Source of the DNA: Desulfobulbus sp.
Lineage (GTDB): Bacteria > Desulfobacterota > Desulfobulbia > Desulfobulbales > Desulfobulbaceae
NCBI GenBank assembly: GCA_009778955.1
Contig: WRFD01000003.1
Span: forward strand, 1-34,535
Length of the DNA: 34,535 nt
Direction of reading: 5' to 3'
This document shows positions 5,586 to 31,138 of this stretch, piece by piece. Below the pieces are notes generated by a model, which worked only from the letters and a program-made list of their open reading frames with translations, made no database searches and was not told where the DNA came from. Within the stretch, counting starts at the first letter, position 1, and the number at the start of each line of letters is the position of its first letter. Made by a program: the position numbers and the translations under genes.

Positions 5586-6041
5586 TCAGGTGAAACTGGC
5601 CATCAATTCGGCCTCGGTGGCCAATTGCCCGTCGACCATGGCCTGGCCGGCCATCTTGATCACCCTGCCCCTCTGCTTGAGCATTTCGAGTTTGAGCACC
5701 AACTGGTCGCCCGGACGGACGATCCTGCGGAAGCGAGCCTTGTCCACCCCAGCGAAATAGGCGAGATGGCCGATCATCTCCCGGTCGGAGAGGCACACCA
5801 AAATACTGCCGACCTGAGCCATGGCTTCCAGGATGAGCACCCCGGGCATAACCGGCTCACCCGGAAAATGGCCCTGGAAAAACGGCTCGTTCATGGTGAC
5901 GTTCTTGATGCCGGTGATGTTCTTCCCATGTTCCACCTCGACGATACGGTCGACGAGGAGGAAGGGATATCGATGCGGCAGGATCGCCATGATTCCCTTG
6001 ACATCGATGGGGAGTTGCAGATCAGATACTGGTGTCGTCAT
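5586..6041 (-). CDS. fabZ: 3-hydroxyacyl-ACP dehydratase FabZ
   Basis: [64 protein letters not shown] overlap with lpxD stop. Confidence 0.97.
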
Positions 6042-7099: not shown

Positions 7100-7179
7100 G
7101 TGCGTATTCCTCCGGATATCAATACGGTCATTCATCGCCGAACAAGACCCCTTGTGGAGCTTGCACAGAGCGAAGCGAA

Positions 7180-9026: not shown

Positions 9027-9055
9027 TTGCCAGCCTCATGTTCCTTTGTTATATT
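9027..9055 (+). promoter_or_regulatory. Sigma-70 type promoter for the OM barrel gene (copy 1)
   Basis: TTGCCA-17 bp-TATATT; same hexamers and spacing conserved in the paralogous upstream region at 10615-10643. Confidence 0.65.
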
Positions 9056-9154
9056 GGGGCTAAAGAAGAAGCTCAGGATTCATGGCTGTTATTGTACTTC
9101 TCGGGCAATAAAGCCCATGCAGACATAGCACAACACAAAACAGGAGAAAGGAAT

Positions 9155-10614: not shown

Positions 10615-10643
10615 TTGCCAGCATCATGTTCTTTTATTATATT
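10615..10643 (+). promoter_or_regulatory. Sigma-70 type promoter for the OM barrel gene (copy 2)
   Basis: TTGCCA-17 bp-TATATT, conserved with copy 1. Confidence 0.65.
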
Positions 10644-10745
10644 GATAACCAATTAGAAAAGCTCAGGATTCATGGCAATTATTGCACTTCTCGGACAATA
10701 ACGCCCCATGCAAACACAGCGCCAACCACAACAGGAGAGAAGAAT

Positions 10746-11600
10746 ATGAAAAAAGCACTGAATGTCATAGTGGCATCCGCATTCGTTTTGACCGCAGGCG
10801 TTGCTCTGGCAGGCGGCCCCGGCAAGAAAATGGGGCCCGGTTGTCCGGAAGCATGCCAGAACCAGATCGACGATCTGCAATCTTCCCAGGCCCAGCAGAA
10901 CGAGCAGTTGGGCGTCTACGGCAAGCAACTGCAGAACCATGAGGGCCGGATCACCGACCTGGAGAAGGCCTTTAACGATTACTGGTATGTGCGTCTTGGC
11001 GCTCGGGCCGCCTGGACTGAGCAGAAGCTCAATGGTCCTCCAGGTCTTAACAGCGTTGATGTCGATTCCGACGCCGGTTGGGGCGGCGCCATCGCCTTTG
11101 GCCACGAGTTCGCCATGTATCAGGCCTTGGGCAAGTTCCGGGCTGAGGTCGAGGTGGCCAAGCAGGGCGGCAATCTTGAAGATAAAACCTTACTTAATGA
11201 CACCAATATCGTTCCACCTTATTATTATGGCCAATCCCTAAGGCTTATTGACGGCAACGTGGACATCACCACGGTCTTCCTCAATGGCTACTACGAACTG
11301 CCGATAGTCGACGCCTTTTCGATCTACTTCATGGCCGGTGTTGGTTATGCCAAGTTTGACATTGATGGCACAGTGGCCGTGTACAACAACTACGACGGAT
11401 CCCAGGTCGGCCCCAACTACAAGATATGGGATGGTAGCGACAACGTTTTTGCCTACAAGGCGGGTGCGGGTGTAACCTATAATTTCACCGATCAGGTCGC
11501 CGCTGATCTGGGCTACGAGTACCTGGGCGTGGCCGACACCGACCTGGCTGACAGCATCAACGGTCACAACGTGGTGCTTTCGGTCCGCTTCAAATTCTAA
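10746..11600 (+). CDS. Outer-membrane beta-barrel protein with N-terminal coiled coil (paralog 2)
   Basis: Same signal peptide, coiled coil and strand sequences as 9155-9964, with divergent loop segments; ends SVRFKF. Confidence 0.88.
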   Translation: MKKALNVIVASAFVLTAGVALAGGPGKKMGPGCPEACQNQIDDLQSSQAQQNEQLGVYGKQLQNHEGRITDLEKAFNDYWYVRLGARAAWTEQKLNGPPGLNSVDVDSDAGWGGAIAFGHEFAMYQALGKFRAEVEVAKQGGNLEDKTLLNDTNIVPPYYYGQSLRLIDGNVDITTVFLNGYYELPIVDAFSIYFMAGVGYAKFDIDGTVAVYNNYDGSQVGPNYKIWDGSDNVFAYKAGAGVTYNFTDQVAADLGYEYLGVADTDLADSINGHNVVLSVRFKF

Positions 11601-14207: not shown

Positions 14208-14999
14208 TCAGAAGGTGTACATGATGCCTGCCGTCAGGCTCCGGGTCTGGGATCTACCCACCATGGGACTGTCCTGGATGTTGCCGCCAAGAAAGACGAT
14301 CTCGCCGCTGCAGAAGATATCCCAGGCGTCGGTGAGGCTGTGGCTCAGCGTGAGGCCGAGATACGGCGAACTCTCCCCGCCGGGATCATGGGGCGTAAGC
14401 CCGCTTTTGCTCGCCCCCTGGCCGCTTATCCCATAATAATAGCTGATATATCGGCTGTCCGACCAGTACACCCCGACCGTCGGTATGATCTCCAGCGGCC
14501 CGAATTCCATGGAATACGCATAGCTCAGCGCCCCATTCCAGCCGTTGCTGTTGCCCAGAATATCCCGGGCCGCGTTGGCGCGCAGCATGCCGTACGGGGT
14601 GGTCAGACGGACTTCCATGCCCGCCGCCACGCTGGCGTCCCTGTCATGCAGCAGGCGCAACTGGGCTTCAGATGTATCCGTGGCATTGAAGCTGGTGGCG
14701 TCATAGGCGCCGAAGATCGAGACTTCAAGAAAATCCAGATTGCAGATTTTCACTCCCACAGCGGTCCCCCTGATATACGCATAATCGCTGTCCAGATCGA
14801 TCATGGGCAAGGGGGTCCATTGGGTGTCATAGCGCTTGTAGGGCGCGAACGTCACGTTGCCGCCTATCCCAACGGCAACCTCGGCAGCGGTAGCCGTCTG
14901 GACAACGGCGGCCAGAAAAAACGCAACCAGCAACCCGACACGGTTCCCGGACTGCCCAAGGATAAAGGGGAGCAGGCGCAACGATGCGGATTGTTCCAT
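14208..14999 (-). CDS. MipA/OmpV family outer-membrane protein
   Basis: 263 aa, hydrophobic leader ending TATAAE, barrel pattern, YLGLTLSHSLTDAWDIFCSGEIVFLGGNIQDSPMVGRSQTRSLTAGIMYTF*; begins 1 nt after the regulator stop. Confidence 0.75.
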   Translation of the reverse strand: MEQSASLRLLPFILGQSGNRVGLLVAFFLAAVVQTATAAEVAVGIGGNVTFAPYKRYDTQWTPLPMIDLDSDYAYIRGTAVGVKICNLDFLEVSIFGAYDATSFNATDTSEAQLRLLHDRDASVAAGMEVRLTTPYGMLRANAARDILGNSNGWNGALSYAYSMEFGPLEIIPTVGVYWSDSRYISYYYGISGQGASKSGLTPHDPGGESSPYLGLTLSHSLTDAWDIFCSGEIVFLGGNIQDSPMVGRSQTRSLTAGIMYTF

Positions 15000-15000
15000 G

Positions 15001-16401
15001 TCAGACCAACTCCTTTTTATGGACGATGGCGATCCCAAGCTTTTTGATGCGATGCCAGATACTGCGCTCAGAGATCTGCAACAATTCAGCGGCCTTGACC
15101 TGCACCCCTCCCGCCTCTTCCAAGGCCTGCATGATGAGATGGCGCTCCATATCTTCCAGCCGCCGGGACAGGTCAAGGGGAAAGACCGTCCGCCCGGCAA
15201 CGGCGGCAGGGTCACGGGTCTCTTGGATATCGCCGGCAGCAAAGCCGGCTGCAAGCATTTCCGGCGTGATCGTGCCGCCAGGGGCGACAATGAACAACCG
15301 CTCGACGCGGTTCTCCAGTTCCCTGACATTACCGGGCCAGGAATAGACCTGCAGGGCCCGGAGAGCCTCTGGGGTGAAGAAGATGAGATTTTTGCCCATT
15401 TCAGTGGCGAATTTTTTGGCAAAGTGCTCGAGCAGAAGTGGAATGTCTTCGGGATGCTCCCGTAAAGGCGGCAGAGTGATAGGGTAGACGTTCAGGCGGT
15501 AGTAGAGGTCCTGGCGGAATCCTCCCCGGCTGATGGCCGCGGCCAGATCCTGGTTGGTCGCCGCGATGATGCGCACATCCACCTTGCGGGATGCGCTCGC
15601 GCCCACCGGCTCGACGGTTTTTTCCTGGATGCAGCGCAGGATCTTCGCCTGTAGCGATAAGGGCATGTCGCCGATTTCATCCAGGAAAAGGGTGCCGGAA
15701 TCGGCCTGGACAAAGCGTCCGGACCGGTTGGCAGTGGCGCCGGTGAAGGCCCCCTTGACGTGACCGAAGAGTTCGCTTTCCAGTAGAGATTCAGGGATGG
15801 CGGCGCAATTCACGGTGACGAACGGCGCCGAGGACCGGGGGCCGTTATAATGGATGGCCTTGGCCACCACCTCCTTGCCGGTGCCGGATTCTCCGGTAAT
15901 GAGCACGTTAGCGGCACTGGCGCTGACTTCGCGGATGCTCTGCCGCACAGCCTGGATCGCCAGGCTGTGGCCGATGAAATTCCGGTCGCTGAAGGTCTTG
16001 CCCAACTCCTGGCGCAACTGCTTGTTATCGGTGCTCAGCGCGTTGAAACGCAGGGCAAGGGCCACGGTCGCCTCAAGGGAGCCCAGATCAAAGGGTTTGA
16101 CGATATAGTCAAAGGCCCCTTCCTTGATGATCTCCACCGCAACCTTCAAGGCGGCATAGGCGGTCATGATCACCACCGGCAGCCCTGGTTCAAAACGCTT
16201 CACCTTTTCCAGAAGGTCGCGTCCGCTCAAGCCGGGCAGGCGCAAATCGCTGAGAACCAGGTGCACTTCCTGTTCCCGCAGCACCGCCAGCGCCTCCTCG
16301 ACAGAGGCTGCGGTAATGGGGTTGTAGCCCATATTTTCCAGGGCCACGGAAAGCACCTCCAGCAGTTTGGCCTCATCGTCGACAATCAGGATCGTCTGCA
16401 T
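15001..16401 (-). CDS. NtrC-family sigma-54-dependent response regulator
   Basis: Receiver (ILIVDDEAKLLEVL, VLSDLRLPGLSG), AAA+ with GESGTGKE and GAFTGA, C-terminal Fis-type HTH (VKAAELLQISERSIWHRIKKLGI). Confidence 0.95.
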   Translation of the reverse strand: MQTILIVDDEAKLLEVLSVALENMGYNPITAASVEEALAVLREQEVHLVLSDLRLPGLSGRDLLEKVKRFEPGLPVVIMTAYAALKVAVEIIKEGAFDYIVKPFDLGSLEATVALALRFNALSTDNKQLRQELGKTFSDRNFIGHSLAIQAVRQSIREVSASAANVLITGESGTGKEVVAKAIHYNGPRSSAPFVTVNCAAIPESLLESELFGHVKGAFTGATANRSGRFVQADSGTLFLDEIGDMPLSLQAKILRCIQEKTVEPVGASASRKVDVRIIAATNQDLAAAISRGGFRQDLYYRLNVYPITLPPLREHPEDIPLLLEHFAKKFATEMGKNLIFFTPEALRALQVYSWPGNVRELENRVERLFIVAPGGTITPEMLAAGFAAGDIQETRDPAAVAGRTVFPLDLSRRLEDMERHLIMQALEEAGGVQVKAAELLQISERSIWHRIKKLGIAIVHKKELV

Positions 16402-16424
16402 GTTGTTCCGCTCTCTATCGCCTG

Positions 16425-18155
16425 TCAACTGTTCAGGCAGACAGTGAAGGTTGTTCCCTGGCCGGGCACGCTCGTACAGGTGATGCTGCCGCCGTGCTCC
16501 TCAATGATGGCATAGGTCTTGGCCAGTCCCAGTCCTAACCCGCTTTTTTTGGTGGAAATGAACGGCAGGTGCATGGTGGACAGCAAGTCTTCCGGAATGC
16601 CCGTACCAGTATCCGCCACCTCAAGGCAGATCCGGTCCTGCGCTTCAGAGTGGTACAGCCGCACGGTCAGGCTGCCGCCTCCCGGCATGGCTTCCGCACT
16701 ATTCAGCACCAGATTGAGCAGGGCCTGGCGGATCTTGTTCTCCTCACCCAGAACACGCACCTCCTGAGCGTTGGGCGTGGCGTTGATGAATGAACAGGCA
16801 ATGCCTTTTGCCGTGAATTCAGCCGCGCTCAGCTCCAGCACATCCTGGGCCAGCGTATCGAGCCGGAAAACGGTCGGCGTAAAGGGAGTCGGCTTGGCAA
16901 AGGATAAAAACTCCGCAATGAGGCTGTCAATGCGGCCGACCTCTTCAATCGCCAGGCCCAGCAGCCGGGATTCCTTGCCATTCTCAGGCAGTTTGCCGTA
17001 CACCAGTTCGGCGGATGTCTTAATCACCAGCAGCGGGTTGCGAATCTCATGGGCAAAGCCCAGCGCTATTTCGCCCAACATGCGGGACCGCTCATGCCTG
17101 GCCGATTGCACGTTCTCGCGCTGCATGAGTTCCAGTTGCCCGGCCATGATGTTGAAGCTGTCGGAAAGTTCCGCAACCTCGTCGTTGCCTGATGGCGCGA
17201 CCCAGCCGGTGAAATTGCCGGAGGCAATTTCCCGGACACCCTCGTTCAATCGCCGTATGGGCCTGGTCAACCGTCGGGCCAACACATAGCCGATACAGCC
17301 GGACAACAGGATACCGCCGGCGAAGAAAGACCAGAACAACGTAAAATAGCCGAAATTGATGCCTTCGTCCGCAAGCAGGTGGGCGGAAACGACGAAAATC
17401 GCCAGAATGGCGCCCTGCTCGTTTCTTACCGGGGTCAGTAAAAAGTATTGGTCAGGCAGGCTGTCCGTCCAGTCGGCATTGGAAATGGCATACTCCGCGG
17501 CCCCGGCTTGCAGAGCCTCAATTGCGGCGGCAGGGAGCACATAGGGGGGGGCGGACGCTGAAGCGTATTCCTGCTGGAATCCCGAATCACCGGGCAGGAA
17601 TATGCGTAATTCCAGCGGCTCGGCGCTGCCGGACTCCGAAAGCCGAATACTGAACTGACTACCCAAATCCAGCCTACGCTCGCTACCGTCCTCTGCGGTT
17701 ATCATGCGCTGGACCACGATGATCAGTTCTTTTGCCCCGTTTTGCATGGTTGCCCAGTGGAACCTGCTGCCTGGAAAGAGCGGGGTTTCCGACAATGATT
17801 GCAGGGAAGGGGTGGCAAAGAGAATGCCCCCGGCCTGGTCCCGCAGCACAATGCAGTCGGCATCCACATTAGTCAGCGCTTCCAGCTCTTCAGGGGTAAA
17901 AGAAACGACCGGTTGAGCGAAACGCGGAGATAGTATGGTGTACGCGGCTGCTATCTCCGTTGCTGTTTCGTCAATGGTGTGAAACAGGTATTGGGAAGCC
18001 TCATGCAGCCAGCGCCCTATATTCTCGTTAGCCGTTTTATTCACCAGCCTTGTGGCTACATGGCTGGCCGCAAGCATCGGCAGGGCGGCCACCAGCATGA
18101 AGGCCAGCACCAGTTTGGTTGCCAGTGATTTTCTGAAATGATGCAAGGGGTTCAT
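16425..18155 (-). CDS. Membrane sensor histidine kinase (periplasmic sensor, HAMP, HisKA, HATPase)
   Basis: Two TM segments flanking a ~230 aa sensor region; RRLTRPIRRLNEGVREIASGNF (HAMP); GFAHEIRNPLLVIKTSAELV (H-box); NLVLNSAEAMPGGG, VADTGTGIPEDL, GLGLGLAKTYAIIEEHGG. Confidence 0.95.
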   Translation of the reverse strand: MNPLHHFRKSLATKLVLAFMLVAALPMLAASHVATRLVNKTANENIGRWLHEASQYLFHTIDETATEIAAAYTILSPRFAQPVVSFTPEELEALTNVDADCIVLRDQAGGILFATPSLQSLSETPLFPGSRFHWATMQNGAKELIIVVQRMITAEDGSERRLDLGSQFSIRLSESGSAEPLELRIFLPGDSGFQQEYASASAPPYVLPAAAIEALQAGAAEYAISNADWTDSLPDQYFLLTPVRNEQGAILAIFVVSAHLLADEGINFGYFTLFWSFFAGGILLSGCIGYVLARRLTRPIRRLNEGVREIASGNFTGWVAPSGNDEVAELSDSFNIMAGQLELMQRENVQSARHERSRMLGEIALGFAHEIRNPLLVIKTSAELVYGKLPENGKESRLLGLAIEEVGRIDSLIAEFLSFAKPTPFTPTVFRLDTLAQDVLELSAAEFTAKGIACSFINATPNAQEVRVLGEENKIRQALLNLVLNSAEAMPGGGSLTVRLYHSEAQDRICLEVADTGTGIPEDLLSTMHLPFISTKKSGLGLGLAKTYAIIEEHGGSITCTSVPGQGTTFTVCLNS

Positions 18156-18323: not shown

Positions 18324-18339
18324 TGGCACACGCCTTGCT
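18324..18339 (+). promoter_or_regulatory. Sigma-54 (-24/-12) promoter
   Basis: TGGCAC-ACGCC-TTGCT, near-perfect match to TGGCACG-N4-TTGCW with correct GG-to-GC spacing; adjacent to a divergent NtrC-type regulator. Confidence 0.82.
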
Positions 18340-18376: not shown

Positions 18377-19093
18377 ATGATCACGCAAAAGACAGCATCA
18401 GACCAGGGACCGGAAGATTGGCGCATTATCTGCGATTTTGACGGCACCATCACGCCCTTTGACGTGACAGACGCGCTCTTGCAGCGGTTCGCCCATCCTT
18501 CCTGGGAAGATGTGGAAGAGCAGTGGTTGGGCGGTAAGATCACCGCGCGGGAGTGCATGGACCGGCAGGTCCGGTTGCTCAATGTCCCACGCCATGTGCT
18601 GGATGGTTTTCTGGACACTGTTCCGGTGGTGGATGGTTTTGTGGACTTTGCGCACAACTGCGCGTCCCAAGGCATCAGTCTCACCGTGGTCAGCGACGGT
18701 CTAGACTACGCCATCAGGCGCATTCTCTCCCGGCATGGCGTAAGCGCCATGCCGATTATCGCCAATCGCCTGCGCTGCCTGGACGAATCCACATACCGGC
18801 TGGAATTTCCTTACGGTATAGCAGGATGCGCCTCCGGCGTGTGCAAGTGCGCAGTGGGCAAAGCCATGGGCGGCAAGATCCTGCTGATTGGCGACGGACA
18901 TTCCGACTGCTGCGTTGCCGGCGTGTCCGCATTGGTGTTGGCCAGACAAGGCAAAAAACTGCAACAACACTGCGAAACAGACGGCTATCCCCACCTGATC
19001 TTTGCGGATTTCCACGATGTCGCCACCTGCCTGGAAAAAATCACGCGGCATGCCCCTGCCGCAACCACGCCGGCGGAAGCCCGCGCGGCTTGA
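18377..19093 (+). CDS. HAD-IB family phosphatase (MtnX/SerB-like)
   Basis: IICDFDGTITPFDVTDALL (HAD motif I), VVSDGLDYAI, IGDGHSDCCVA; start at MITQKT placed downstream of the sigma-54 promoter (track start 18323 overlaps the promoter). Confidence 0.85.
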   Translation: MITQKTASDQGPEDWRIICDFDGTITPFDVTDALLQRFAHPSWEDVEEQWLGGKITARECMDRQVRLLNVPRHVLDGFLDTVPVVDGFVDFAHNCASQGISLTVVSDGLDYAIRRILSRHGVSAMPIIANRLRCLDESTYRLEFPYGIAGCASGVCKCAVGKAMGGKILLIGDGHSDCCVAGVSALVLARQGKKLQQHCETDGYPHLIFADFHDVATCLEKITRHAPAATTPAEARAA

Positions 19094-19144
19094 TCCATCC
19101 AACCATTCTGAACCCATTGACCAACCAACAACCCGGAGGAAAGC

Positions 19145-20536
19145 GTGAAACAACCCGCAGTTGACGAACAAGCACTGCTCCGTGAGGAAGCCCGATACTG
19201 CTCCCACGGAGACACCGTACACTATCTGGAACCGCCCAAGCTGTTCACCGGCTGTGCCGGTTCTTTTCTATACGATGCCAACGATACGCCCTATCTGGAC
19301 TTGCAGATGTGGTATTCGGCTGTGAACTTCGGCTATGGCAACGAGCGCTTGAACAATGCCTTGAAGCGCCAGATCGACACCCTACCGCAGGTTGCCTCGC
19401 AATATCTGCATAGGGAAAAAGTGGAGCTGGCGGCCATACTGTGCAGGGCCATGAAAAAGATCTGGGACGAGGACGGTCGCGTGCATTTCAATGTGGGCGG
19501 CTCCCAGTCCATTGAAGATTCACTGAAACTGGTTCGCAACGCCAGCAAGGGCAAAAGTCTGATGCTGGCCTTTGAGGGCGGCTACCACGGTCGTACCCTG
19601 GGAGCTTCGGCCATCACCTCGTCCTACCGCTACCGCAGGCGGTACGGACATTTTGGCGACCGGGGCCTGTTTATTCCCTTCCCCTACTGCTTCCGCTGCC
19701 CGTACAAGAAACGTCGCGATGACTGCGAACTGTACTGCTTAAGCCAGTTTGAGCGGTTATTTGAAACAGAATATTATGGCCTGTGGGACCCCAAGGCGCC
19801 CGGCGGCGGCGAGGCCGAATACGCCGCCTTCTATATCGAGTGCATCCAGGGCACCGGTGGCTATGTGATTCCCCCCAAAGACTACTACCCCAGATTCAAG
19901 CGGATTCTGGAGGAGCGCAATATCCTGTTGGTGGACGATGAGATCCAGATGGGCTTTTACCGCACCGGCAAGCTCTGGGGGCTTTCGAACTTCGGGATAA
20001 AGCCGGACGTGGTGGTCTTCGGCAAGGCCATGACCAATGGGCTCAACCCCCTGGCCGGCATCTGGGCGCGCGAGGCGCTCATCAATCCCCAGGTCTTCCC
20101 CTGCGGCTCCACCCATTCCACGTTTGCCAGCAACCCGCTGGGCACGGCTGTGGCCTTGGAAACCATGCAGATGCTGGCTGAAGGCGACTATGAACAAAGC
20201 GTGAACCAACAGGGGGCCTATTTTCTCAGCGGACTGCGGGAACTTCAATCCCGCTACCCGATCATCGGCGATGTGGATGGGCTAGGGCTGGCGCTGCGAG
20301 CGGAGATTTGCGCCGCCGACGGCTTCACCCCCGACAAGGCCATGCTGGACCGCATCGTGGATGAAGGCATCAAGGGCGACATCGAAGTTGACGGCAAAAC
20401 CTATGGCCTGGTGCTGGACGTGGGCGGCTATTACAAGAACGTCATCACCTTTGCCCCCTCTTTGCACATCACGCGGGAGGAAATCGATCTGGCCATGCGC
20501 CTGCTCGATGAACTTCTGCGCCGGGTCACGCGGTAA
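19145..20536 (+). CDS. Class III (acetylornithine/GABA-type) PLP-dependent aminotransferase
   Basis: AFEGGYHGRTLGASAIT, ILLVDDEIQMGFYRTGKLWG, DVVVFGKAMTNGLNPLAG; GGA AGC RBS region upstream. Confidence 0.93.
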   Translation: MKQPAVDEQALLREEARYCSHGDTVHYLEPPKLFTGCAGSFLYDANDTPYLDLQMWYSAVNFGYGNERLNNALKRQIDTLPQVASQYLHREKVELAAILCRAMKKIWDEDGRVHFNVGGSQSIEDSLKLVRNASKGKSLMLAFEGGYHGRTLGASAITSSYRYRRRYGHFGDRGLFIPFPYCFRCPYKKRRDDCELYCLSQFERLFETEYYGLWDPKAPGGGEAEYAAFYIECIQGTGGYVIPPKDYYPRFKRILEERNILLVDDEIQMGFYRTGKLWGLSNFGIKPDVVVFGKAMTNGLNPLAGIWAREALINPQVFPCGSTHSTFASNPLGTAVALETMQMLAEGDYEQSVNQQGAYFLSGLRELQSRYPIIGDVDGLGLALRAEICAADGFTPDKAMLDRIVDEGIKGDIEVDGKTYGLVLDVGGYYKNVITFAPSLHITREEIDLAMRLLDELLRRVTR

Positions 20537-20552
20537 TAGCCTGGAGAAAACG

Positions 20553-21470
20553 ATGCAAGGTATCGAACAGAGCGGCCATTTTTTTCCCGGCAGTCGGACC
20601 GGCATCCTGCTGGTGCACGGCCTGACCGGCACGCCCATGGAAATGCTCAGTGTGGCCAAGCGCCTGAACAAGTACGGCTTCACCGTATCCTGCCCAGTGC
20701 TGGCCGGACACTGCGGCACGGAACAAGACCTCCTGGCCACCCGCTGGCGAGACTGGGCGGCCAGCGCGGAACAGGCGCTGCTGCGGCTGCGGGAGCACTC
20801 GGACGTGACCTTTGTGGGCGGGTTGTCCGCCGGAGCCGTGCTCAGTCTGTATCTGGCGGACCTCTACCCCTCCCTGGTGCGTGGCATGGCCCTGTATTCA
20901 ACCACCCTGACCTGGGACGGATGGAGCATCCCCAAGCTCAGTTTCCTGTTGCCCCTGGTCTTGCGCCTGCCGTATGTCGGCAAGCGTTACCATTTTACGG
21001 AAACCTTTCCCTATGGCATAAAAAATGAACATCTGCGCCGGCGCATCGTGGCCAAGCTGAAGAGCGGCGACACCGCCACCGCCGGCCACACCCATACGCC
21101 GGGCGTCATTGTCCGGGAACTGTGGCGCATGGTGGATGCGGTGAAAGAGAAATTTCCGTCCATCAGGACGCCGGCTCTGATTGTGCACGCCGACAACGAC
21201 GATATCGCCGGGCTGCGCAAAAACGCCCTGTACATGCAACGCCGCCTGGCCGGCCCCACGGAACTGCTCAGGCTGTACGACAGCTACCACATGGTCACTG
21301 TGGACCAGGAACGGCACCTGGTGGCCGACGCCACGGCCCGCTTCTTCCAAGGCCACCTGGAAACGGAAGAGTACGCGGAACTGACCGCGGCCGCCAAGGA
21401 GCCCGTACCCGTTCCGCCAGAAGATGCAAACCGCCGGAATGCGCGCTCGGCGGTTGCGGAGCCGGCATGA
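20553..21470 (+). CDS. Alpha/beta-fold hydrolase (carboxylesterase/Est30-like)
   Basis: GILLVHGLTGTPMEMLSVAKRL, FVGGLSAGAVLSLYLA (nucleophile elbow GLSAG), IVHADNDDI, catalytic His region SYHMVTVDQERHLV. Confidence 0.88.
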   Translation: MQGIEQSGHFFPGSRTGILLVHGLTGTPMEMLSVAKRLNKYGFTVSCPVLAGHCGTEQDLLATRWRDWAASAEQALLRLREHSDVTFVGGLSAGAVLSLYLADLYPSLVRGMALYSTTLTWDGWSIPKLSFLLPLVLRLPYVGKRYHFTETFPYGIKNEHLRRRIVAKLKSGDTATAGHTHTPGVIVRELWRMVDAVKEKFPSIRTPALIVHADNDDIAGLRKNALYMQRRLAGPTELLRLYDSYHMVTVDQERHLVADATARFFQGHLETEEYAELTAAAKEPVPVPPEDANRRNARSAVAEPA

Positions 21471-21826
21471 CGGCGCTGGCTGTCTTCCTTTGGATGCTGA
21501 ACATGTCCATGGACACCTTCGGACACCTGGCCTTCAAGGCCGCGGCCGGCCATGGCCTTGACCTGGACGCCTTCAGCCATTGGAAGCACATGGCTCGCAG
21601 CCCCTGGCTCTGGGCTGGGGTTATCTGCTACACCGGCGAATTCTTTGTCTGGGCGGCCTTTTTGTCGCAGGTGCCCCTAGCCGCCGGGGTGATGCTCGGC
21701 TCGATCAACATCGTGGTCCTGATGATCGCCGGGCGGCTGGTGTTCAAGGAATGCCTCACGGCCTGGCGCATGGCTGGCATGCTGCTGATCACCGCCGGCG
21801 TTATTCTGGTGGGACTTGGCGTATGA
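21467..21826 (+). CDS. SMR/EamA-type small membrane transporter subunit 1
   Basis: 119 aa, four hydrophobic segments; ATGA overlap with the preceding gene; AAGVMLGSINIVVLMIAGRLVFKECLTAWRMAGMLLITAGVILVGLGV. Confidence 0.8.
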   Translation: MTALAVFLWMLNMSMDTFGHLAFKAAAGHGLDLDAFSHWKHMARSPWLWAGVICYTGEFFVWAAFLSQVPLAAGVMLGSINIVVLMIAGRLVFKECLTAWRMAGMLLITAGVILVGLGV

Positions 21827-22239
21827 AGCGGTTCTATCTGATCGGTTTTTTGTGCTTGATGGCCTCGGACACCCTGGCGCAGATCTGCTTCAAATTCGCT
21901 GGTACGGCTGCCGAGCCGCTGGCGTTCGATGTGGACTGGGTGCTGCGGATTGCGACAAGCCCCTGGTCGTATGGCGCGATGGTCGGATATTTATGTTCCT
22001 TTGTCTCCTGGATGACCCTGCTGCGCTACGCGCCCATCGGTCCCGCCTTTGCCGCCTCGCACCTGGAGTTGGTCACTGTGACCATTTTTTCCGTCTGGCT
22101 CTTCCATGAGCCGCTCACCCTGTCCAAGATGGCAGGCGGCCTGTTGATTGTGCTCGGAGTGCTCTGCCTTGCCAAAGGTGAAAGCGTCGTCGGAGAAGAA
22201 CATGGACAGGATGCCGCCCAAGGCGAGAGTCGGGCGTGA
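21823..22239 (+). CDS. SMR/EamA-type small membrane transporter subunit 2
   Basis: 138 aa, four hydrophobic segments; ATGA overlap; APIGPAFAASHLELVTVTIFSVWLFHEPLTLSKMAGGLLIVLGVLCLA. Confidence 0.8.
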   Translation: MKRFYLIGFLCLMASDTLAQICFKFAGTAAEPLAFDVDWVLRIATSPWSYGAMVGYLCSFVSWMTLLRYAPIGPAFAASHLELVTVTIFSVWLFHEPLTLSKMAGGLLIVLGVLCLAKGESVVGEEHGQDAAQGESRA

Positions 22240-23446
22240 ACTGCCGCCCACGGCAGGATTGCCCCTGACCTGGAGCGATTATCTGCACAAGCCCGGCCTG
22301 TCTTTTGCCGAAGGCCTTACGCAATGGCCCGGCCTGCCGGACCCGATCATGACCTGTTCCGGCACCGCCGCTCTGGTGGTCGCCCTGAAGACCCTGCACC
22401 AACGCCACCCGAACAGGAATGCCGTCATTGCGCCCGCCTACAACTGCCCCCTGGTGCCTCTGGCCACATGCCTGGTTTCTGGTTTGCGCGCCATCGCTTG
22501 CGATACCGTTGCCGGCGGCAGCGATCTTGACCTGCAACAATTAGACAGCCTGTGCGATGAGCGCACCCTGGCCGTCATCCCCACTCACCTGGGCGGCCGC
22601 GTGGCGGATGTCCGGGCGGCCCAGGCTGTTGCCGAGCGGTACGGCGCTTTTGTCATCGAAGACGCGGCCCAAGCCCTCGGGGCCTTCGCGGAAGAGGACC
22701 AGACCGTCGGCTTGCGGGGTGATGTCGGTTTTTTCAGCCTGGCGGCCGGCAAGGGTCTGACCACCTACGAAGGCGGCATCCTGGTCAGCCGCGACCCCCA
22801 ACTGCGGGTGGAACTGGCGGCCGTGGCGAGAAAGACGCTGCGACCCGATCTGGGCTGGACCCTACGCCGCAACCTGGAACTGCTGGGGTATGGGCTGTTG
22901 TACACCCCCTCCGGCCTCCGGCTGGCCTATGGACGCAACCTGCGCAAACACTTGGATGCGGGCGACGAGGCCACGGCGGTGGGCGATGTCTTCACCCTGG
23001 CGGACATACCCCTGCACAGCCTGGATGCGTTGCGCTTGCGCGTGGCGGCCAACGGACTGTTCCGCCTGCCCAGCTTTCTGGAAGAAGGGCGTTGGCGGGC
23101 CATGCGCCGACGCGGGCAACTGGCCGAACTGCCCGGCGTCTTGGTCATTGGCGATCGTCCGGGAACAAACGGGGCATGGCCCTTCTTCATGGTGCTCATG
23201 CCCGGCAAAGGGCAACGGGACCGCGCCCTGCACACCCTTTGGCGTTCCGGCAACGGCGTGTCCAAGCTCTTTGCCCATGCCTTGCCGGACTATCCATTTA
23301 TGGCCCCGATCCTGGCGGGACACGACTCACCGGGCTACCCCAACGCACGGGACCTGGCAGACAGATTGCTCACCGTCTCCAACACCCATTGGCTGGATAA
23401 CGCCACCTTCACCCTGATCGTCCAAGCCTTGAGGAGCAGCCTGTGA
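22202..23446 (+). CDS. DegT/DnrJ/EryC1/StrS-family PLP aminotransferase-like protein
   Basis: CSGTAALVVALKTL, VIAPAYNCPLVPLA, GAFVIEDAAQALGA, GDVGFFSLAAGKGLTTYEGGILVS (PLP Lys region). Confidence 0.88.
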   Translation: MDRMPPKARVGRELPPTAGLPLTWSDYLHKPGLSFAEGLTQWPGLPDPIMTCSGTAALVVALKTLHQRHPNRNAVIAPAYNCPLVPLATCLVSGLRAIACDTVAGGSDLDLQQLDSLCDERTLAVIPTHLGGRVADVRAAQAVAERYGAFVIEDAAQALGAFAEEDQTVGLRGDVGFFSLAAGKGLTTYEGGILVSRDPQLRVELAAVARKTLRPDLGWTLRRNLELLGYGLLYTPSGLRLAYGRNLRKHLDAGDEATAVGDVFTLADIPLHSLDALRLRVAANGLFRLPSFLEEGRWRAMRRRGQLAELPGVLVIGDRPGTNGAWPFFMVLMPGKGQRDRALHTLWRSGNGVSKLFAHALPDYPFMAPILAGHDSPGYPNARDLADRLLTVSNTHWLDNATFTLIVQALRSSL

Positions 23447-24519
23447 GCTCGAATGCGCCTGTCGCCTTCCGCAATTTGCCGGAGCCTTCGGCCTTGCCCG
23501 GGCTGTTTGTCCAGCATCCGCCGCAGGACTTTGCCTGCCGCTCAGACAGGCTGGGCCTACCGGTTTTTACAACCAGCTTCGATCTGCTGACCACCTTGGA
23601 ACCCACCGCCCGCCGCCGCCTGACCAAACTCCCCTTATTCCGCGCTTGGTCAAGGTTGTTGAGGCTGCACACCTGTTTCGCCGGGACCACCATCACCGAA
23701 TATGCGCCGCTGCCGCCAAACCTTGCGCCGGAAGCCGTCATCGACAATCTGCTTTCAGAACATGCGGCTGGCCACACCCTGACCATCCTCAAGGATTTGC
23801 CCAACGGTTCGCCCCTCTTGCCGGAAGAGGACAACGCCTTTGCCGATAGGCTGGCCGCCCTGGCGGCGGGTAGAGGGTTCATCGAGGTGGAAGGCCAGGC
23901 CCTGGCCTATGTGCGCATTGACTTTGCGGACAGCGGCGAATACCTGGGCAGGCTCTCATCGGGTCGCAGAAAGGATGTGCGCCGCAAGCTGAAAAAGCGG
24001 TCCGCGCTTCAGGTGGAAACAGTGCGCCTGGGGGATGGGCGGTTTGTCGATCCCACCTTTCTGGAAGAGATGTACGCCATGTACCTGGATGTTTTTGCGC
24101 AAAGCGAGATCCAGTTCGACCTGCTCAGTCTGGAATTTTTTTCGGCCCTGCTGCAACACCCTGAAATCGAAGGCGTGGTCTTCCTGTACCGGCATGGGCA
24201 ACAGCTTGCCGGGTACAATATCTGCCTGATCCAAAACGGCATGTTGATCGACAAGTATGTGGGCTTCACCTATCCGCTGGCGCGGGAACTGAACCTGTAT
24301 TGCATCAGTTGGATGGAGAACCTGGAATTCGCCCTGGGGAACGGCCTGCACACCTACATCGCGGGCTGGACCGACCCCTTGGTCAAGGCGAGCCTGGGGG
24401 CCTCGTTCACCTTTACCCGGCACCTGGTCTGGGTGCGCAATCCCCTGTTGCGGAGCATTCTCCGCCCCCTACGACGCTTTTTCGAGTCCGACGGCCAGAT
24501 GATGCGGGGTGCGGCATGA
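23443..24519 (+). CDS. GNAT/FemAB-like N-acyltransferase
   Basis: GTG start with GTGA overlap; RLSSGRRKDVRRKLKKRS, GVVFLYRHGQQLAGYNICLIQNGMLIDKYVGFTYPLARELNLYCISWMENLEFALGNGLHTYIAG. Confidence 0.75.
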   Translation: MSSNAPVAFRNLPEPSALPGLFVQHPPQDFACRSDRLGLPVFTTSFDLLTTLEPTARRRLTKLPLFRAWSRLLRLHTCFAGTTITEYAPLPPNLAPEAVIDNLLSEHAAGHTLTILKDLPNGSPLLPEEDNAFADRLAALAAGRGFIEVEGQALAYVRIDFADSGEYLGRLSSGRRKDVRRKLKKRSALQVETVRLGDGRFVDPTFLEEMYAMYLDVFAQSEIQFDLLSLEFFSALLQHPEIEGVVFLYRHGQQLAGYNICLIQNGMLIDKYVGFTYPLARELNLYCISWMENLEFALGNGLHTYIAGWTDPLVKASLGASFTFTRHLVWVRNPLLRSILRPLRRFFESDGQMMRGAA

Positions 24520-25460
24520 ACGAAGGCCCGGAAAAGACAAAGCAGGCAAGGAACGGGCTGATATGGCCGGACATGGCGCGGCCGGTAATTCTGGATTTCG
24601 ACGACTCTGGGCCGCCGCTGTCGCCGGATACACTGCGCATCCCCTTGAGCGATTGGCAGGAGTCCATCCGTTTCGGCTGCACCCTACGGAATTATGCGGC
24701 CCTGGCCAGCCGCCTGGACGGACTGATGCCGCTGGAATGCGGCTGCGTGTTCACCGGCAGCGGCGATTATCACCACCTTTCCCTGTATCTGCTCAGGCGT
24801 CTAGCCCGACACAGAGACCTTGTCCCAGGCTGCCTGGATGTTGTAGTCTGCGACAACCATCCAGACAACATGCGCTATCCCTTCGGCCTGCACTGCGGTT
24901 CTTGGGTGCGCCACGCCGTAGCGCTTGCCTGCGTCCGCCATATCCACGTCATCGGCATCACCTCGGCGGACATCACCCTTGCCCATGCCTGGGAAAATTA
25001 TCTTGCACCCTTTGTGCGGAAAAAACTCTTCTATTGGAGCGTGGGCCGCCGGGCCGCCTGGCTGGGACTGTTGGGCAGAAGGGCCCACTCCAGAAGTTTC
25101 GATTCAGCCGGCGAGCTTGTGGCAGCATTCACGCCTGTGGCGCGGGACAGCGGCTGCCTGTACCTGTCTATCGACAAGGATGTACTCAGCCCGGCGGTGG
25201 CGCGCACCACCTGGGACCAGGGCGTTTTCGGGCTGGAGGATCTTGAAATGGTGATCCGGGCTTGCTCCGGCAAACTGGCCGGGGCCGACATCACCGGGGA
25301 TGTTTCGGCTTATGCCTATGGCGGAGTTTTCAAGCGCCTGTTATGCCGCCTGGACGGACAACGAGGCCTGGACGCGGCAACATCGGCATCATGGCAAAAG
25401 GTGCAGCTGGCGGTGAATGCGCGTCTGCTGGCACTGCTGCGTCAGACGATGTCCGTATAA
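24516..25460 (+). CDS. Arginase/ureohydrolase-fold family protein
   Basis: Candidate metal-ligand motifs GSGDYHH, VVVCDNHPDNM (D-x-H-x-x-D like), YLSIDKDVLSPA (D-x-D); ATGA overlap with preceding gene. Confidence 0.72.
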   Translation: MNEGPEKTKQARNGLIWPDMARPVILDFDDSGPPLSPDTLRIPLSDWQESIRFGCTLRNYAALASRLDGLMPLECGCVFTGSGDYHHLSLYLLRRLARHRDLVPGCLDVVVCDNHPDNMRYPFGLHCGSWVRHAVALACVRHIHVIGITSADITLAHAWENYLAPFVRKKLFYWSVGRRAAWLGLLGRRAHSRSFDSAGELVAAFTPVARDSGCLYLSIDKDVLSPAVARTTWDQGVFGLEDLEMVIRACSGKLAGADITGDVSAYAYGGVFKRLLCRLDGQRGLDAATSASWQKVQLAVNARLLALLRQTMSV

Positions 25461-25749: not shown

Positions 25750-26190
25750 ATGCTTGCCAGTTCCTCCTTGACCGGCCTTTTCCTGGCCTCGTTTCTGGCC
25801 GCCACCATTCTGCCGATGCAGTCGGAAGCGATCCTGGTCGGGCTGCTCCTCACCGGCGACTATCCGGTTTTCGCGCTGCTGGTCGTGGCAAGCTGCGGCA
25901 ATATCCTCGGCTCGGCGTGCAACTGGTGGTTGGGCCGGCACGTCGAGCGATACCGCCATTGCTCCTGGTTTCCGGCGAGCGAGCAGCGGCTGCATCAGAC
26001 CCAACAGTGGTACCGGCGCTATGGCAGGTGGTCGCTGCTGTTGTCTTGGGCGCCGATCATCGGCGACCCGCTCACCGTTGCCGCGGGCATCATGCGCGAG
26101 CCCCTGCCGGTTTTCCTCCTGATCGTCAGCATTGCCAAAGCCGGACGCTACCTGATCCTGGCGGCCGCCACCCTGAACTGGCTCTCCTGA
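25750..26190 (+). CDS. YqaA-family (DedA/SNARE-like) membrane protein
   Basis: MLASSSLTGLFLASFLAATILPMQSEAILVGLLL, GNILGSACNWWLGR, FVPIIGDPLTVAAG-like WAPIIGDPLTVAAGIMR. Confidence 0.88.
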   Translation: MLASSSLTGLFLASFLAATILPMQSEAILVGLLLTGDYPVFALLVVASCGNILGSACNWWLGRHVERYRHCSWFPASEQRLHQTQQWYRRYGRWSLLLSWAPIIGDPLTVAAGIMREPLPVFLLIVSIAKAGRYLILAAATLNWLS

Positions 26191-26241: not shown

Positions 26242-27282
26242 CTATTGCGCCGGCCCTGACGGCTGCCCCCCGGCCGGGATCGGGGAAGGCTCGATCGAGG
26301 ATGACTGCACAGGCGTCTTGACCCGCACCAGAGAAGAACGGGACGCACTTTTCAATTCGTCCACCTGCCAGCCGTCAACCCGGAACAACTGCCCCTGGTT
26401 GGACACCTTGAGCACCAACGACGGGTCAGCCGGAAGCGCCGGCGCCGCATCCTTCTTTACCGGTTGCGCCGGCTTCGGCGGCTGACCGAAGACATATTCG
26501 ACAACCATACCGTTGTCGAGTTCCACAGTACACTTCAGCTCCGGGGTGGACAGACCGTATTCAGGCTTGGCCTCGGCGCCGAGAAGGCCGTTGACCATCA
26601 GGCCTGCAAGCCGGTTGACCAGGGCGTCGCGCCGCTCCTTGACCACCTCTTCATCGGGCGCAAGATCGGATGGTTGCAGGCCGTCCTGCCCCCGTTCCAA
26701 GCGCAGGCCGGGCAATTCGATCCGCTTGATCTGCTCGGGCTTAAGTTGGAGGATCCTAGAGTCGATCCAACTGTCGGTCCTGACCTCAAGGTCGTGCTGG
26801 GACAAGGACAGGGACTGAATTTCAGGATCGTTGTCGGCCCTGAGATAGATCTTGCGCAGGCCGGGCGAGGTGCCGAAGTAAAGGATCGCCAGCGCGGTCC
26901 CATCCTTGAGCAGATTCAGCTTGCGGACATACCGGTCCGGCGCCACCTTGAAGCGGGCGGCCGCCTCGGCGGTGGTAGCCTCAGGCCAGCCGCGCTCCAT
27001 GCTGACCAATTGGTCGATCAGGTCCTGCACCCTGGCTGAGTCCGCCGGAAACGACCCGGCCTCAGGCAACAGCCATCGGTCCTTGTCCTTTTTCAGCGCC
27101 AGGTGGCGCCCTTCGCCATCTTCGAGCAGCACCTCGTTGACATCGGCCGCCTTGAAGGCGAGCAAGGCTCCCTTTTCCGGTCGCGCCGTCCCGGTGCGGT
27201 CGATGAAGCGGGTCGCCAACAACAGCCCGATCTGCACCAGCAGCAGGATCAAGCACCCCCAAATCAGTCGTTTCATGGTCAT
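26242..27282 (-). CDS. DUF4340 domain-containing protein
   Basis: N-terminal TM, KDRWLLPEAGSFPADSARVQDLIDQLVSM, LAILYFGTSPGLRKIYLRADND; overlaps the GldG gene stop. Confidence 0.85.
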   Translation of the reverse strand: MTMKRLIWGCLILLLVQIGLLLATRFIDRTGTARPEKGALLAFKAADVNEVLLEDGEGRHLALKKDKDRWLLPEAGSFPADSARVQDLIDQLVSMERGWPEATTAEAAARFKVAPDRYVRKLNLLKDGTALAILYFGTSPGLRKIYLRADNDPEIQSLSLSQHDLEVRTDSWIDSRILQLKPEQIKRIELPGLRLERGQDGLQPSDLAPDEEVVKERRDALVNRLAGLMVNGLLGAEAKPEYGLSTPELKCTVELDNGMVVEYVFGQPPKPAQPVKKDAAPALPADPSLVLKVSNQGQLFRVDGWQVDELKSASRSSLVRVKTPVQSSSIEPSPIPAGGQPSGPAQ

Positions 27283-30209
27283 GCCCTCCCGGCGACCAAC
27301 ATAAGTTCACGCCGCCGCGACCTGGTCTGGATCGTCCGGTGCAGCCCCCAGACGATCAACAGGCCGACAGCTGCCAGACCGTAGTTGAGATACTCCCACC
27401 GCATCCGTTCCGCCTTGTCCATGGGCAGCAGGGTCCGGGCGAAGTGGCCGCGGCCCCGGATGGAAAGCAGATCGCGGTCCTCCAACGACCAGTCGATGCA
27501 GTTGGCCACCAGTTGCAGCGGGTTGAGATAGCGGCTGCCGCTGGCTCCGGAGGCCAGATCGAGGCTGGTGTCGGCCAGAAAGGTATTGGATGCCAGCAGA
27601 ATGATCCGGGCCGAATCCGACGACCGGTCCAGCACCCGGCCGATCACTTCGGGCCGGGCTTGCTCCGCCTCGGCGTCCTTGCCATTTTTGGGGTCGGATT
27701 GGGCGGCAGCCTGCCGTTTTTTCTCCTTTTCGGCCTGCTGATTTGCCTCCTCGATCAGAGGCGAAGTCTTGCCCTTGAACCAGGAATCAAAGCCGCCTTC
27801 CACCATCATCGCCAGCAACTGCCGACCAACGGGTTCACCTTGGGCAAAGCCGGCCTGGCCGTACTGGTTGAAATCGGGCTGAATATCTATGGAATCGGAC
27901 AGCCAGGCCTCTTGCGAACTCTCCAACAGCCGCACCACCCTCCGGCCCTTGTCCTGCCCGCCGTCTACCTTGATCGGCGAGGCCCAGGTCATGGACAATT
28001 GGTCAATGCCGGTGAGCAGGCCGCTGTCCCGATTCATGCCATCATTCCTGATGTCAATGAAATAGGGATAGTTGAGCAGATGGGTCTCGCGGATGGTGAG
28101 GCCGCCGGCTTGGCGCTCCACCGGCACCGGAAAGGCGGCATTCTGCGGGTCGAGCACCAGGGTCGACTCCATCTTGATGCCGTAGCTGGCCAGCCAGTCG
28201 CCGAGGCCGCTTTTCTTTTCCTCGGCGCTGATCCGCCCTTGGAGACTCACGTCAAAGGGTGCGGTGGCCAGGACCACGGTGCCGCCCTGCATGAGGAACT
28301 GATCGATGGCAAACACCTGTTTTTCCTGAAGCCGTTCAGGGGCGACCACCACCAGGATGTCTGCCTCCGGGTCCACCTGTCCGGCGCTCAAATCAACGGG
28401 TTTGACCCGGTGTTCCTCTGCAATGAAGTTGTGCAGGAATTGAAAGGTGTTGCCCTGGCTGGGCATGCCGAATTGGGCCATGTCCGGATTGGCCTGAGGC
28501 GTGTACAGGGCCACGGTCCTGAGCATGCCCTTGGAGAAACGCTTCAGCCCGGCGGTGATGGCGGCTTTCAGCGCCGCCTTGTCCAGGGCCGTGGGCAGGG
28601 CAACCTGCACCTGCTGGCCGCCGCTCTCCAAGATCATGTAGAACCAAAACGTCTGGGGCGACAACAGGTCGGCCACCATCGGCCGCATGCCTAATTCCTT
28701 GCCCAACCGCTCGGCAAGTTGGCCGCCGCCTCCATCGGGGTCAACAAAATCGATGGCCAGCTTATCGCCGGCCTGCTGCTTGAAATCGGCCAGGACCGCG
28801 TCCAGTGACTTTTTCAATTCGACCAATTGCTGCGGCAGCCTGGCATCGGGCGAGAAATAGCCGTGGAACACCACCGGCCCATTGATGGCCGCAAAGAGGT
28901 TACCGCCGCCCTGATAGCTGTAGAGCACTTTCTTGATTGCCCGGGTGATGTCGTGCTCCGGGTTGCGGAGCTCCACCTCCAATTTGGTGTCGCCCTCGCT
29001 CTTAATCTCGATCAGATCCCGGAAGCCGAGGGTGACAAACTCGTCGCCATACTTGACCAGGATATCGAAATAGGAGTTGGTGACCGCAGTCTGGTAGCGG
29101 GAAGCGGTCTGAAAAGGAACGGGGCGGATGGAATATTTTTCACCAGCCTCCTGCTCCAATTCCGGCTTTTCCTGGGGATCGACGAATTCGACCTTAACCT
29201 TGCCCTCGCCGGCCACCTCGTACTCACGCAGCAAATCGCGCAGTTGTGGCTGCAAAGGGGCAAGGAGCGGATGGGTCTGGGCTGAAAAATAGCCGCGAAT
29301 CAGCAGCGGCTCCTGCAACCGCGCCAGATAGGATCGGGTGGCAGGTGAAATCGAATAGATGCGGCCCTGGGTCAGATCGGCGCGCAGCATGCCCAGCGGC
29401 GCCAGCCACAGGTTCAACAAAAAAAAGTTGGCCACCAGCAGCCCGGTCAGTGTCCGCCAGCGGCGGTGCGCGCTGTTGGCCGGGTTTCCGGCCCATCGCT
29501 GCCGTTCCAGGGTGTAGACGTTGAGGGACAGGAAAATGCCGGTCAGACTCAGGTAGTAGGCTAGGTCGCGCAGGTCGATCACCCCCCGGGTAATGGAGGC
29601 GAACCGGGAACCGGCGCCGATCAGTTTGAGCATGTCCCCGACCTGACTGCCGAACAAGGAGGTCAGGGTGTTGGCCCCCACCAGGTAGAGCACGGTGCAA
29701 ACCAAGGTGGTGACGATCAGGCTGACGATCTGGCTGTTGAACTGGGCGCTGACAAAAAGGCCGATGGCAAGATAGGCCCCAGCCAGGCACAGACTGGCGA
29801 GATAGCCGCCAAAGACCGGCCCCCAGTCGAGCTGACCGAGCCGTGAAATGGTAATGGGCAGGGGCAGTGTCAACAGCAGGCCGATGGCGACCAGGCCGAG
29901 GCAGGCCACGAACTTGCCGCCGACCAGGGTCGGCAGCCCCACCGGTGCGGTCAGAAGCGGCTCCAGGGTGCCGGCCCGGTGCTCCTCCGACCAGACCCGC
30001 ATGGTGATGGCGGCCGAAAGAAAAATCAGCAGCAACGGCATCCACTCGAACATCAGCCGTACATCGGCGATATTGCGACTGAAAAAGGTTTCAACCCAGA
30101 AAAAGATGAACAGAGTGGCGGCAAGAAAGGCGCCAAAAAAGATGAAGGCAGCGGGCGTGGCGAAAAAGACGGCCAACTCCCGGCGGGCGACCTTGCGCAG
30201 GGTGTTCAT
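27279..30209 (-). CDS. Fused ABC-2 permease (GldF-like) and auxiliary GldG-like protein
   Basis: 976 aa: six-TM permease with SEEHRAGTLEPLLTAPV, then the GldG-type domain (YSISPATRSYLARLQEPLLIRGYFSAQTHPLLAPLQPQLRDLLREY..., LVVVAPERLQEKQVFAIDQFLMQGGTVVLATAPFD). Confidence 0.9.
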   Translation of the reverse strand: MNTLRKVARRELAVFFATPAAFIFFGAFLAATLFIFFWVETFFSRNIADVRLMFEWMPLLLIFLSAAITMRVWSEEHRAGTLEPLLTAPVGLPTLVGGKFVACLGLVAIGLLLTLPLPITISRLGQLDWGPVFGGYLASLCLAGAYLAIGLFVSAQFNSQIVSLIVTTLVCTVLYLVGANTLTSLFGSQVGDMLKLIGAGSRFASITRGVIDLRDLAYYLSLTGIFLSLNVYTLERQRWAGNPANSAHRRWRTLTGLLVANFFLLNLWLAPLGMLRADLTQGRIYSISPATRSYLARLQEPLLIRGYFSAQTHPLLAPLQPQLRDLLREYEVAGEGKVKVEFVDPQEKPELEQEAGEKYSIRPVPFQTASRYQTAVTNSYFDILVKYGDEFVTLGFRDLIEIKSEGDTKLEVELRNPEHDITRAIKKVLYSYQGGGNLFAAINGPVVFHGYFSPDARLPQQLVELKKSLDAVLADFKQQAGDKLAIDFVDPDGGGGQLAERLGKELGMRPMVADLLSPQTFWFYMILESGGQQVQVALPTALDKAALKAAITAGLKRFSKGMLRTVALYTPQANPDMAQFGMPSQGNTFQFLHNFIAEEHRVKPVDLSAGQVDPEADILVVVAPERLQEKQVFAIDQFLMQGGTVVLATAPFDVSLQGRISAEEKKSGLGDWLASYGIKMESTLVLDPQNAAFPVPVERQAGGLTIRETHLLNYPYFIDIRNDGMNRDSGLLTGIDQLSMTWASPIKVDGGQDKGRRVVRLLESSQEAWLSDSIDIQPDFNQYGQAGFAQGEPVGRQLLAMMVEGGFDSWFKGKTSPLIEEANQQAEKEKKRQAAAQSDPKNGKDAEAEQARPEVIGRVLDRSSDSARIILLASNTFLADTSLDLASGASGSRYLNPLQLVANCIDWSLEDRDLLSIRGRGHFARTLLPMDKAERMRWEYLNYGLAAVGLLIVWGLHRTIQTRSRRRELMLVAGRA

Positions 30210-31138
30210 TGTTCCCTTCCTCCAGTCATGTTGATTTCACTGAATATTTTTTCCAAATTACGCGTTTCGGGGGCAAGGCCATACAGGGGCCGTCCCTGAT
30301 TGACCAGGGCGGCGGCCACCAAGGGCGCAAGGTCGTGCGCGGCCATGGCGCCGGAGACGGCATAGCAACATCGGCCGCTTTCGGCGGGCAGGGCCTCGAC
30401 CGCGCCCACCCCTTCCACTCCGGCGAGCAGGGCATCGGCCCCGGCCTGACGGTCGGTTGTCACCAGCAGTCGCTGTCCGGCGCCCAGTTCGGCCAGGCGG
30501 GCATCCACAACCTTGCGGCCGCGCTGGATGATGATCACCCGGTCGCAGACCGCCTGCACCTCCTGGAGAATATGGGTCGAGATCAGCAGGGTCGATTTCT
30601 GGGCCAAATCCCTGAGCAGGCCGCGCATGTGCTGAATCTGGGTGGGGTCGAGGCCGTTGGTGGGTTCGTCGAGAATGAGCATTTTCGGACGATGCAGGAT
30701 AGCCTGGGCCACGCCGACCCGCTGGCGGTAACCGCGCGACAGGGTGGCGATTTGCTGCCCGGCCTTGTCGGTCAGCGCGGTCCACTCCAGGGTCTCGCGC
30801 AACAGCGGTCCCATGCGGTCAGCCTCGACCTCGTGCAGGATCGCCTGGTACTCGAGGTAGCCCGCCACGGTCATTTCCGGATAAAGCGGGCAATTTTCCG
30901 GCAGATAGCCGATAAGCGACTGGATGGCGCGCCGGTTACCGACCATTTTCAGATCATTGATCCGGATGGCGCCGCCAGTCGGTTCGAGAAAGCCGGTCAG
31001 CATTTTCATGATTGTGGTTTTGCCGGCCCCGTTATGGCCGAGAAGGCCGACAATTTCGCCGGCGCCAATGGTAAAAGAGACATCATCGACCGCGATATGC
31101 GGTCCATAAGTTCGAGTCAGATGGTCGACTAGGATCAT
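30206..31138 (-). CDS. ABC transporter ATP-binding protein (GldA-like)
   Basis: GLLGHNGAGKTTIMKMLTG (Walker A), LSRGYRQRVGVAQAILHRPKMLILDEPTNGLDP; AGGAG RBS. Confidence 0.95.
   Translation of the reverse strand: MILVDHLTRTYGPHIAVDDVSFTIGAGEIVGLLGHNGAGKTTIMKMLTGFLEPTGGAIRINDLKMVGNRRAIQSLIGYLPENCPLYPEMTVAGYLEYQAILHEVEADRMGPLLRETLEWTALTDKAGQQIATLSRGYRQRVGVAQAILHRPKMLILDEPTNGLDPTQIQHMRGLLRDLAQKSTLLISTHILQEVQAVCDRVIIIQRGRKVVDARLAELGAGQRLLVTTDRQAGADALLAGVEGVGAVEALPAESGRCCYAVSGAMAAHDLAPLVAAALVNQGRPLYGLAPETRNLEKIFSEINMTGGREQ

Follow-up and report, generated by a model that had tools for sequence, protein, structure and literature searches.

A 34,535-nucleotide stretch of a Desulfobulbus sp. genome (contig WRFD01000003.1 of GenBank assembly GCA_009778955.1, positions 1 to 34,535; hereafter the window) carries an eight-gene operon that, on balance, we think makes and exports an amino compound carrying an acyl group, most probably an amino lipid, and that appears to have been horizontally transferred and is under two-component and sigma-54 control. 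The case is carried by the gene set, a sigma-54 promoter, recurrent co-location of the genes in distant taxa, enzyme folds and active-site residues. The gene cluster is real, widespread and, judged against the open-access literature and curated family models, apparently undescribed.

Operon structure and regulation

The window is one whole contig of a 308-contig assembly that is 91% complete. All eight core genes lie on the forward strand (18377–25460), closely packed or overlapping. They encode an MtnX-like HAD-IB phosphatase (HAD, 18377–19093), a class III pyridoxal phosphate (PLP) enzyme with an unusual substrate pocket (AT3, 19145–20536), an alpha/beta hydrolase nearest to monoacylglycerol lipase (abH, 20553–21470), two small EamA/SMR half-transporters (EamA1, 21467–21826; EamA2, 21823–22239), a DegT-type PLP enzyme (22202–23446), a FemAB-like tandem-GNAT transferase (23443–24519) and an arginase-fold dimetal hydrolase without the guanidinium-binding Glu (ARG, 24516–25460). 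Gaps of 51 nt (HAD–AT3) and 16 nt (AT3–abH) separate the first genes; EamA2 and DegT overlap by 38 nt, and overlaps of 4 nt join abH to EamA1, EamA1 to EamA2, DegT to the FemAB-like gene and the latter to ARG. Gene coordinates, spacing and families all agree with those proposed earlier from the letters and open reading frames (ORFs; the sequence-only reading), as does the absence of non-ribosomal peptide synthetase (NRPS), polyketide synthase (PKS) and glycosyltransferase genes from the eight. None of the eight core proteins reaches an NCBIfam equivalog cut-off, and no Rfam family was found in the window.

The eight genes are under purifying selection. A same-genus relative (locus L005) has the identical gene order, with 80–93% protein identity to the window, and dN/dS between the two is 0.07–0.30 for all eight genes, which are therefore selected rather than chance ORFs.

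The link to sigma-54 that had been read from the sequence holds. The site TGGCACACGCCTTGCT (18324–18339, forward strand) is the sole perfect match to the -24/-12 sigma-54 consensus in the window, where 0.05 would be expected, with 37 nt between its end and the HAD start codon; L005 retains the site, and four Pseudomonas loci have it upstream of HAD with one mismatch. On the reverse strand, a divergent arm encodes a sensor histidine kinase (HK, 16425–18155), an NtrC-type sigma-54 response regulator (RR, 15001–16428) and a MipA/OmpV outer-membrane protein (14208–14999, start codon approximate). The arm belongs to the system, and both marks of sigma-54/NtrC control, a -24/-12 promoter and an NtrC-type activator, are present. 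In Pseudomonas, HAD–AT3–abH–GNAT is followed by an HK and an NtrC-type RR, the latter 51–52% identical; as this locus has the same type of HK and RR together with the one-mismatch site, the regulatory link is one that different phyla share. Different two-component systems serve other versions of the cluster.

Distribution and co-location of the core genes

Homologues of the core genes are not scattered; they are co-located in distant groups. Scanning GTDB with ARG yielded 98 confirmed relatives, and 80 loci were fetched, including those of Acinetobacter, Enterobacterales, Xanthomonadales, Burkholderiales and Desulfovibrionaceae. Gene content was counted only in fetched ARG loci of at least 16 kb (n = 54). 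Seven or eight core genes are found in 33 of these 54 loci (eight in 21, seven in 12) and five in another 12. Gene order and strand differ between loci, and because the genes co-locate in rearranged orders, the link is functional rather than an inherited gene order. Pairwise distances of the partner proteins also correlate, most strongly for the FemAB-like protein and ARG (r = 0.91, uncorrected for species relatedness). In high-GC loci, genes were called by ORF and homology only, and accessory genes may have been missed.

Searches with other genes and in other collections agree with this pattern. Of 244 Desulfovibrionia genomes, 7 carry AT3 and 3 carry ARG, the ARG carriers all having AT3 as well. 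Two of a further 273 Gammaproteobacteria have AT3, each with adjoining HAD and abH, and the AT3 gene of Pluralibacter found no match in E. coli. A plasmid search with AT3 matched 34 records at 60–80% identity; in the six inspected, GNAT and ARG-like genes are present in all, HAD lies beside AT3 in five and EamA is present in five. Related versions are carried on Rhizobium, Agrobacterium, Sinorhizobium and Xanthomonas plasmids. The AT3 of the window is 71% identical to that of Uliginosibacterium and 68% identical to those of rhizobial plasmids, compared with 59% for another family of its own order; this greater closeness to distant taxa suggests horizontal transfer of the operon.

Cluster versions and accessory genes

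The core divides and acquires further genes in different lineages. One Desulfovibrionia family holds HAD–AT3–abH alone, with a cyclopropane fatty acid (CFA) synthase in one member, and DegT is missing from several versions. Pseudomonas has two loci, HAD–AT3–abH (with GNAT and the same type of two-component system) and FemAB–ARG–DegT–EamA pair; the GNAT of the former is a FemAB-like gene of its own (L095:11897–13021), 26–28% identical to that of the window. On rhizobial plasmids the order is two-component system–HAD–AT3–ARG–EamA–(desaturase)–abH–GNAT–EamA–(CFA synthase)–MipA/OmpV, and one Agrobacterium plasmid has an additional TolC–permease–ATPase–membrane fusion protein (MFP) set. Xanthomonadales loci have an additional acyl carrier protein (ACP) and a FabF-like ketosynthase (KS), and several loci an additional DevC-type permease, ATPase, MFP and NodT/TolC channel (DevBCA–NodT). 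Where a CFA synthase occurs, it scores at or near the equivalog cut-off, and in some versions a fatty acid desaturase lies within or adjoins the operon. OmpV and DevBCA–NodT never occur in the same locus among the fetched ARG loci, and for that reason may stand in for one another as the outer route.

A GSAM (HemL)-like paralogue adjoins HAD in five Xanthomonadales genomes that gave no strong AT3 match (for example, L040:18815–20203 and L097:7788–9176). We considered whether this gene, seen in Dokdonella, is a housekeeping neighbour and rejected the idea, as each of the five genomes has a second HemL-like gene elsewhere; for the same reason, the paralogue looks like a replacement of AT3, which suggests a step that forms or moves an amine. 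Separately, on a Bartonella plasmid (L109:12437–14998), the neighbours of AT3–GNAT–ARG include an MBOAT O-acyltransferase and what reads as an AlgJ/AlgX-like gene.

Core enzymes

AT3 belongs to Aminotran_3 (PF00202, E = 1.4e-69), with invariant PLP residues D265 and K294. Common class III aminotransferases have Glu or Arg at the positions of its Thr237, Asp425 and Thr435, and some omega-transaminases have Arg in the Asp425 loop. In AT3, Thr237 and Thr435 are found in 55 of 55 sequences and Asp425 is invariant, so that the Glu switch (QGE) and the carboxylate-binding Arg of the GABA/ornithine-type aminotransferases are lacking; among solved structures, archaeal amino acid racemases are closest to it. 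HAD is nearest to MtnX, and an assignment to this phosphatase of methionine salvage was rejected at 86.5 bits against an equivalog cut-off of 303. The nearest relatives of abH are thermostable monoacylglycerol lipases. DegT keeps its Lys, and its first half resembles sugar and inosose aminotransferases.

The model of the FemAB-like protein (pLDDT 93) has a tandem-GNAT fold, as in MprF and FemX, and is nearest to streptothricin peptide synthases, MprF and FemX (TM about 0.5). The best Foldseek matches of the ARG model (pLDDT 90) are all ureohydrolases, led by proclavaminate amidino hydrolase and agmatinase (TM about 0.54), and the profile E-value to Protein Data Bank (PDB) arginases is 0.009. 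The ureohydrolase dimetal ligands (His, DxHxD and DxD) are present as H86/H87, D113, H115, D117, D220 and D222, invariant in 50 sequences, so both metal sites are kept. The guanidinium-orienting Glu (E277 of arginase) is absent: DITGDVS of ARG aligns to DVMEVSP of proclavaminate amidino hydrolase, placing the invariant Gly261 at the position of the Glu. ARG is probably a dimetal C–N hydrolase with a different substrate.

Proposed function and alternatives

We propose the following route to an exported amino lipid. AT3 would form or rearrange an amine on a substrate other than an ordinary amino acid, and HAD would dephosphorylate the result to an amino alcohol, which the tandem-GNAT enzyme would acylate or aminoacylate at the amine. 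abH and ARG could then trim ester and C–N bonds, with DegT, where present, adding a second amination. The EamA pair would carry the product over the inner membrane, and MipA/OmpV, or DevBCA–NodT in other versions, would deliver it to the outer membrane or through it. In serinol formation, the aminotransferase step of the RtxA N-terminal domain is followed by dephosphorylation to give an amino alcohol (PMC3222319), which is a possible precedent, by analogy, for the first two steps. An acyl chain is suggested by the desaturase, CFA synthase, KS/ACP and lipase-like abH of the cluster versions, an amine by the two PLP enzymes, and export by the EamA pair together with OmpV or DevBCA–NodT. That the nearest folds to the tandem-GNAT enzyme are aminoacyl transferases, including MprF, also supports the proposal. 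The sequence-only reading had likewise proposed a single transcript whose products make, acylate and move an amino-containing or lipid-linked molecule; co-location, lipid genes, exporters and the MprF/FemX-like GNAT fit that outline, which is amended by the HK–RR–MipA/OmpV arm it left out and by the versions in which DegT is missing.

Several points weigh against this proposal. Only a minority of loci carry any one of desaturase, CFA synthase, KS/ACP or DevBCA, and the window has none of them, so the acyl chain is deduced from some versions only. At TM about 0.5, structural matches show folds and not substrates, and the enzyme activities and the product are predictions. NtrC-type sigma-54 control and OmpV-like proteins are, in addition, typical of nutrient-use operons.

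We think it unlikely that the operon modifies the envelope as Arn or MprF does. On this view an existing membrane lipid would be altered, for example by addition of an aminoacyl or amino group, and flipped to the outside, the resulting change in surface charge being governed by the two-component system. The EamA pair bears a distant resemblance to ArnE/ArnF, as does DegT to ArnB, the FemAB-like GNAT has MprF and FemX among its nearest folds, and MipA/OmpV and the two-component system are conserved, all of which such a modification would explain. However, the operon has no glycosyltransferase or sugar-nucleotide enzyme, every Arn score falls far below its cut-off, and the KS/ACP, desaturase and tripartite exporter found elsewhere suggest an entirely new molecule.

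We give rather little weight to a catabolic operon, in which the two-component system would sense an amine, amide or guanidino compound outside the cell for the enzymes to degrade. NtrC-type sigma-54 control, an OmpV-like protein, a class III PLP enzyme, a phosphatase, a hydrolase and a ureohydrolase fold could all serve such a purpose, but ARG lacks the guanidinium Glu, neither an ABC nor a TRAP uptake transporter recurs, and DegT, the tandem GNAT, KS/ACP, the desaturase and the DevBCA exporter fit synthesis and export. Finally, it is improbable that HAD–AT3–abH and EamA–DegT–FemAB–ARG are two pathways joined by position only, as the separate Pseudomonas loci and the Desulfovibrionia family with only the first module might imply, because the modules have been rejoined repeatedly, in different orders and in distant groups, and the HAD–AT3 locus is present in three of the four examined Pseudomonas genomes with a FemAB–ARG locus (in the fourth, HAD alone was found at the AT3 threshold and AT3 is fragmented).

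More tentatively, the amino-lipid operon could be the type case of widespread, undescribed biosynthesis–export clusters that make a new amino lipid through new reactions of class III PLP and arginase-fold enzymes, without NRPS, PKS or glycosyltransferase. The cluster recurs in Acinetobacter (including strains of A. baumannii and A. nosocomialis), Pseudomonas, Enterobacterales, Xanthomonadales, Burkholderiales, metagenome-assembled genomes of Desulfovibrionaceae and rhizobial plasmids. If the proposal is correct, an envelope lipid or secreted amphiphile this widespread would matter for surface chemistry, for competition and for contact with hosts, and the class III and arginase-fold enzymes would bring new activities to folds that have been studied closely. 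Because hosts such as Pseudomonas and Rhizobium can be cultured, the question is directly testable.

Genomic surroundings

Shortly after the operon, the window encodes a VTT-domain (DedA-like) membrane protein (25750–26190, forward strand), probably unrelated to the operon because nothing near ARG in L005 matches it, followed by genes that read as an ABC-2/GldG-like permease, a DUF4340-like neighbour and an ATPase (26242–31138, reverse strand). Genes that read by eye like lpxI, lpxA and lpxD of lipid A synthesis (3879–7135, reverse strand) lie about 11 kb from the operon. Two similar tandem exported proteins (9038–9964 and 10626–11600, forward strand) have VLTAGVALAGGPGKKMG near both starts.

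Comparison with known systems

No paper on this cluster was found in the open-access literature, subscription papers being outside that scope; among curated family models, the gene set has no characterised match and no NCBIfam equivalog covers the cluster. The operon resembles ArnBCADTEF in combining a DegT-type PLP enzyme, paired small EamA/SMR flippase subunits and two-component control. It differs in lacking sugar-nucleotide enzymes and, among its eight genes, the glycosyltransferases ArnC and ArnT, and its HAD, class III, tandem-GNAT and arginase-fold enzymes have no Arn counterpart; Arn membership was rejected on scores (ArnB, 61 bits against a cut-off of 631; ArnF, 35 and 24 against 99; ArnE, 25 and 18 against 92). 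With the aminoacyl-tRNA-dependent transferases MprF, FemX and those of streptothricin synthesis, the FemAB-like protein appears from its model to share the tandem-GNAT architecture (TM about 0.5), although it has no detectable sequence match among PDB chains.

Proteobacterial sphingolipid clusters (Spt–AcpR–AasR–CerR–CerS; gene roles from PMC9386255 and PMC11324152) similarly group a PLP enzyme, an ACP, an N-acyltransferase and transport genes for an amino lipid, but serine palmitoyltransferase is not present here. A ceramide route was rejected, the acyltransferase not being homologous to CerS (YghO) of E. coli BL21 (hhalign probability 0.1, no BLASTP match). ARG has the fold and both metal-site motifs of proclavaminate amidino hydrolase, agmatinase and arginase, and differs from these ureohydrolases in its invariant Gly at the guanidinium-binding Glu. 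The likeness to RtxA serinol formation would extend only to the logic of aminotransfer then dephosphorylation. Several cluster versions share with the DevBCA–TolC exporter of heterocyst glycolipids an MFP, a DevC-type permease, an ATPase and an outer-membrane channel, whereas the window has MipA/OmpV instead.

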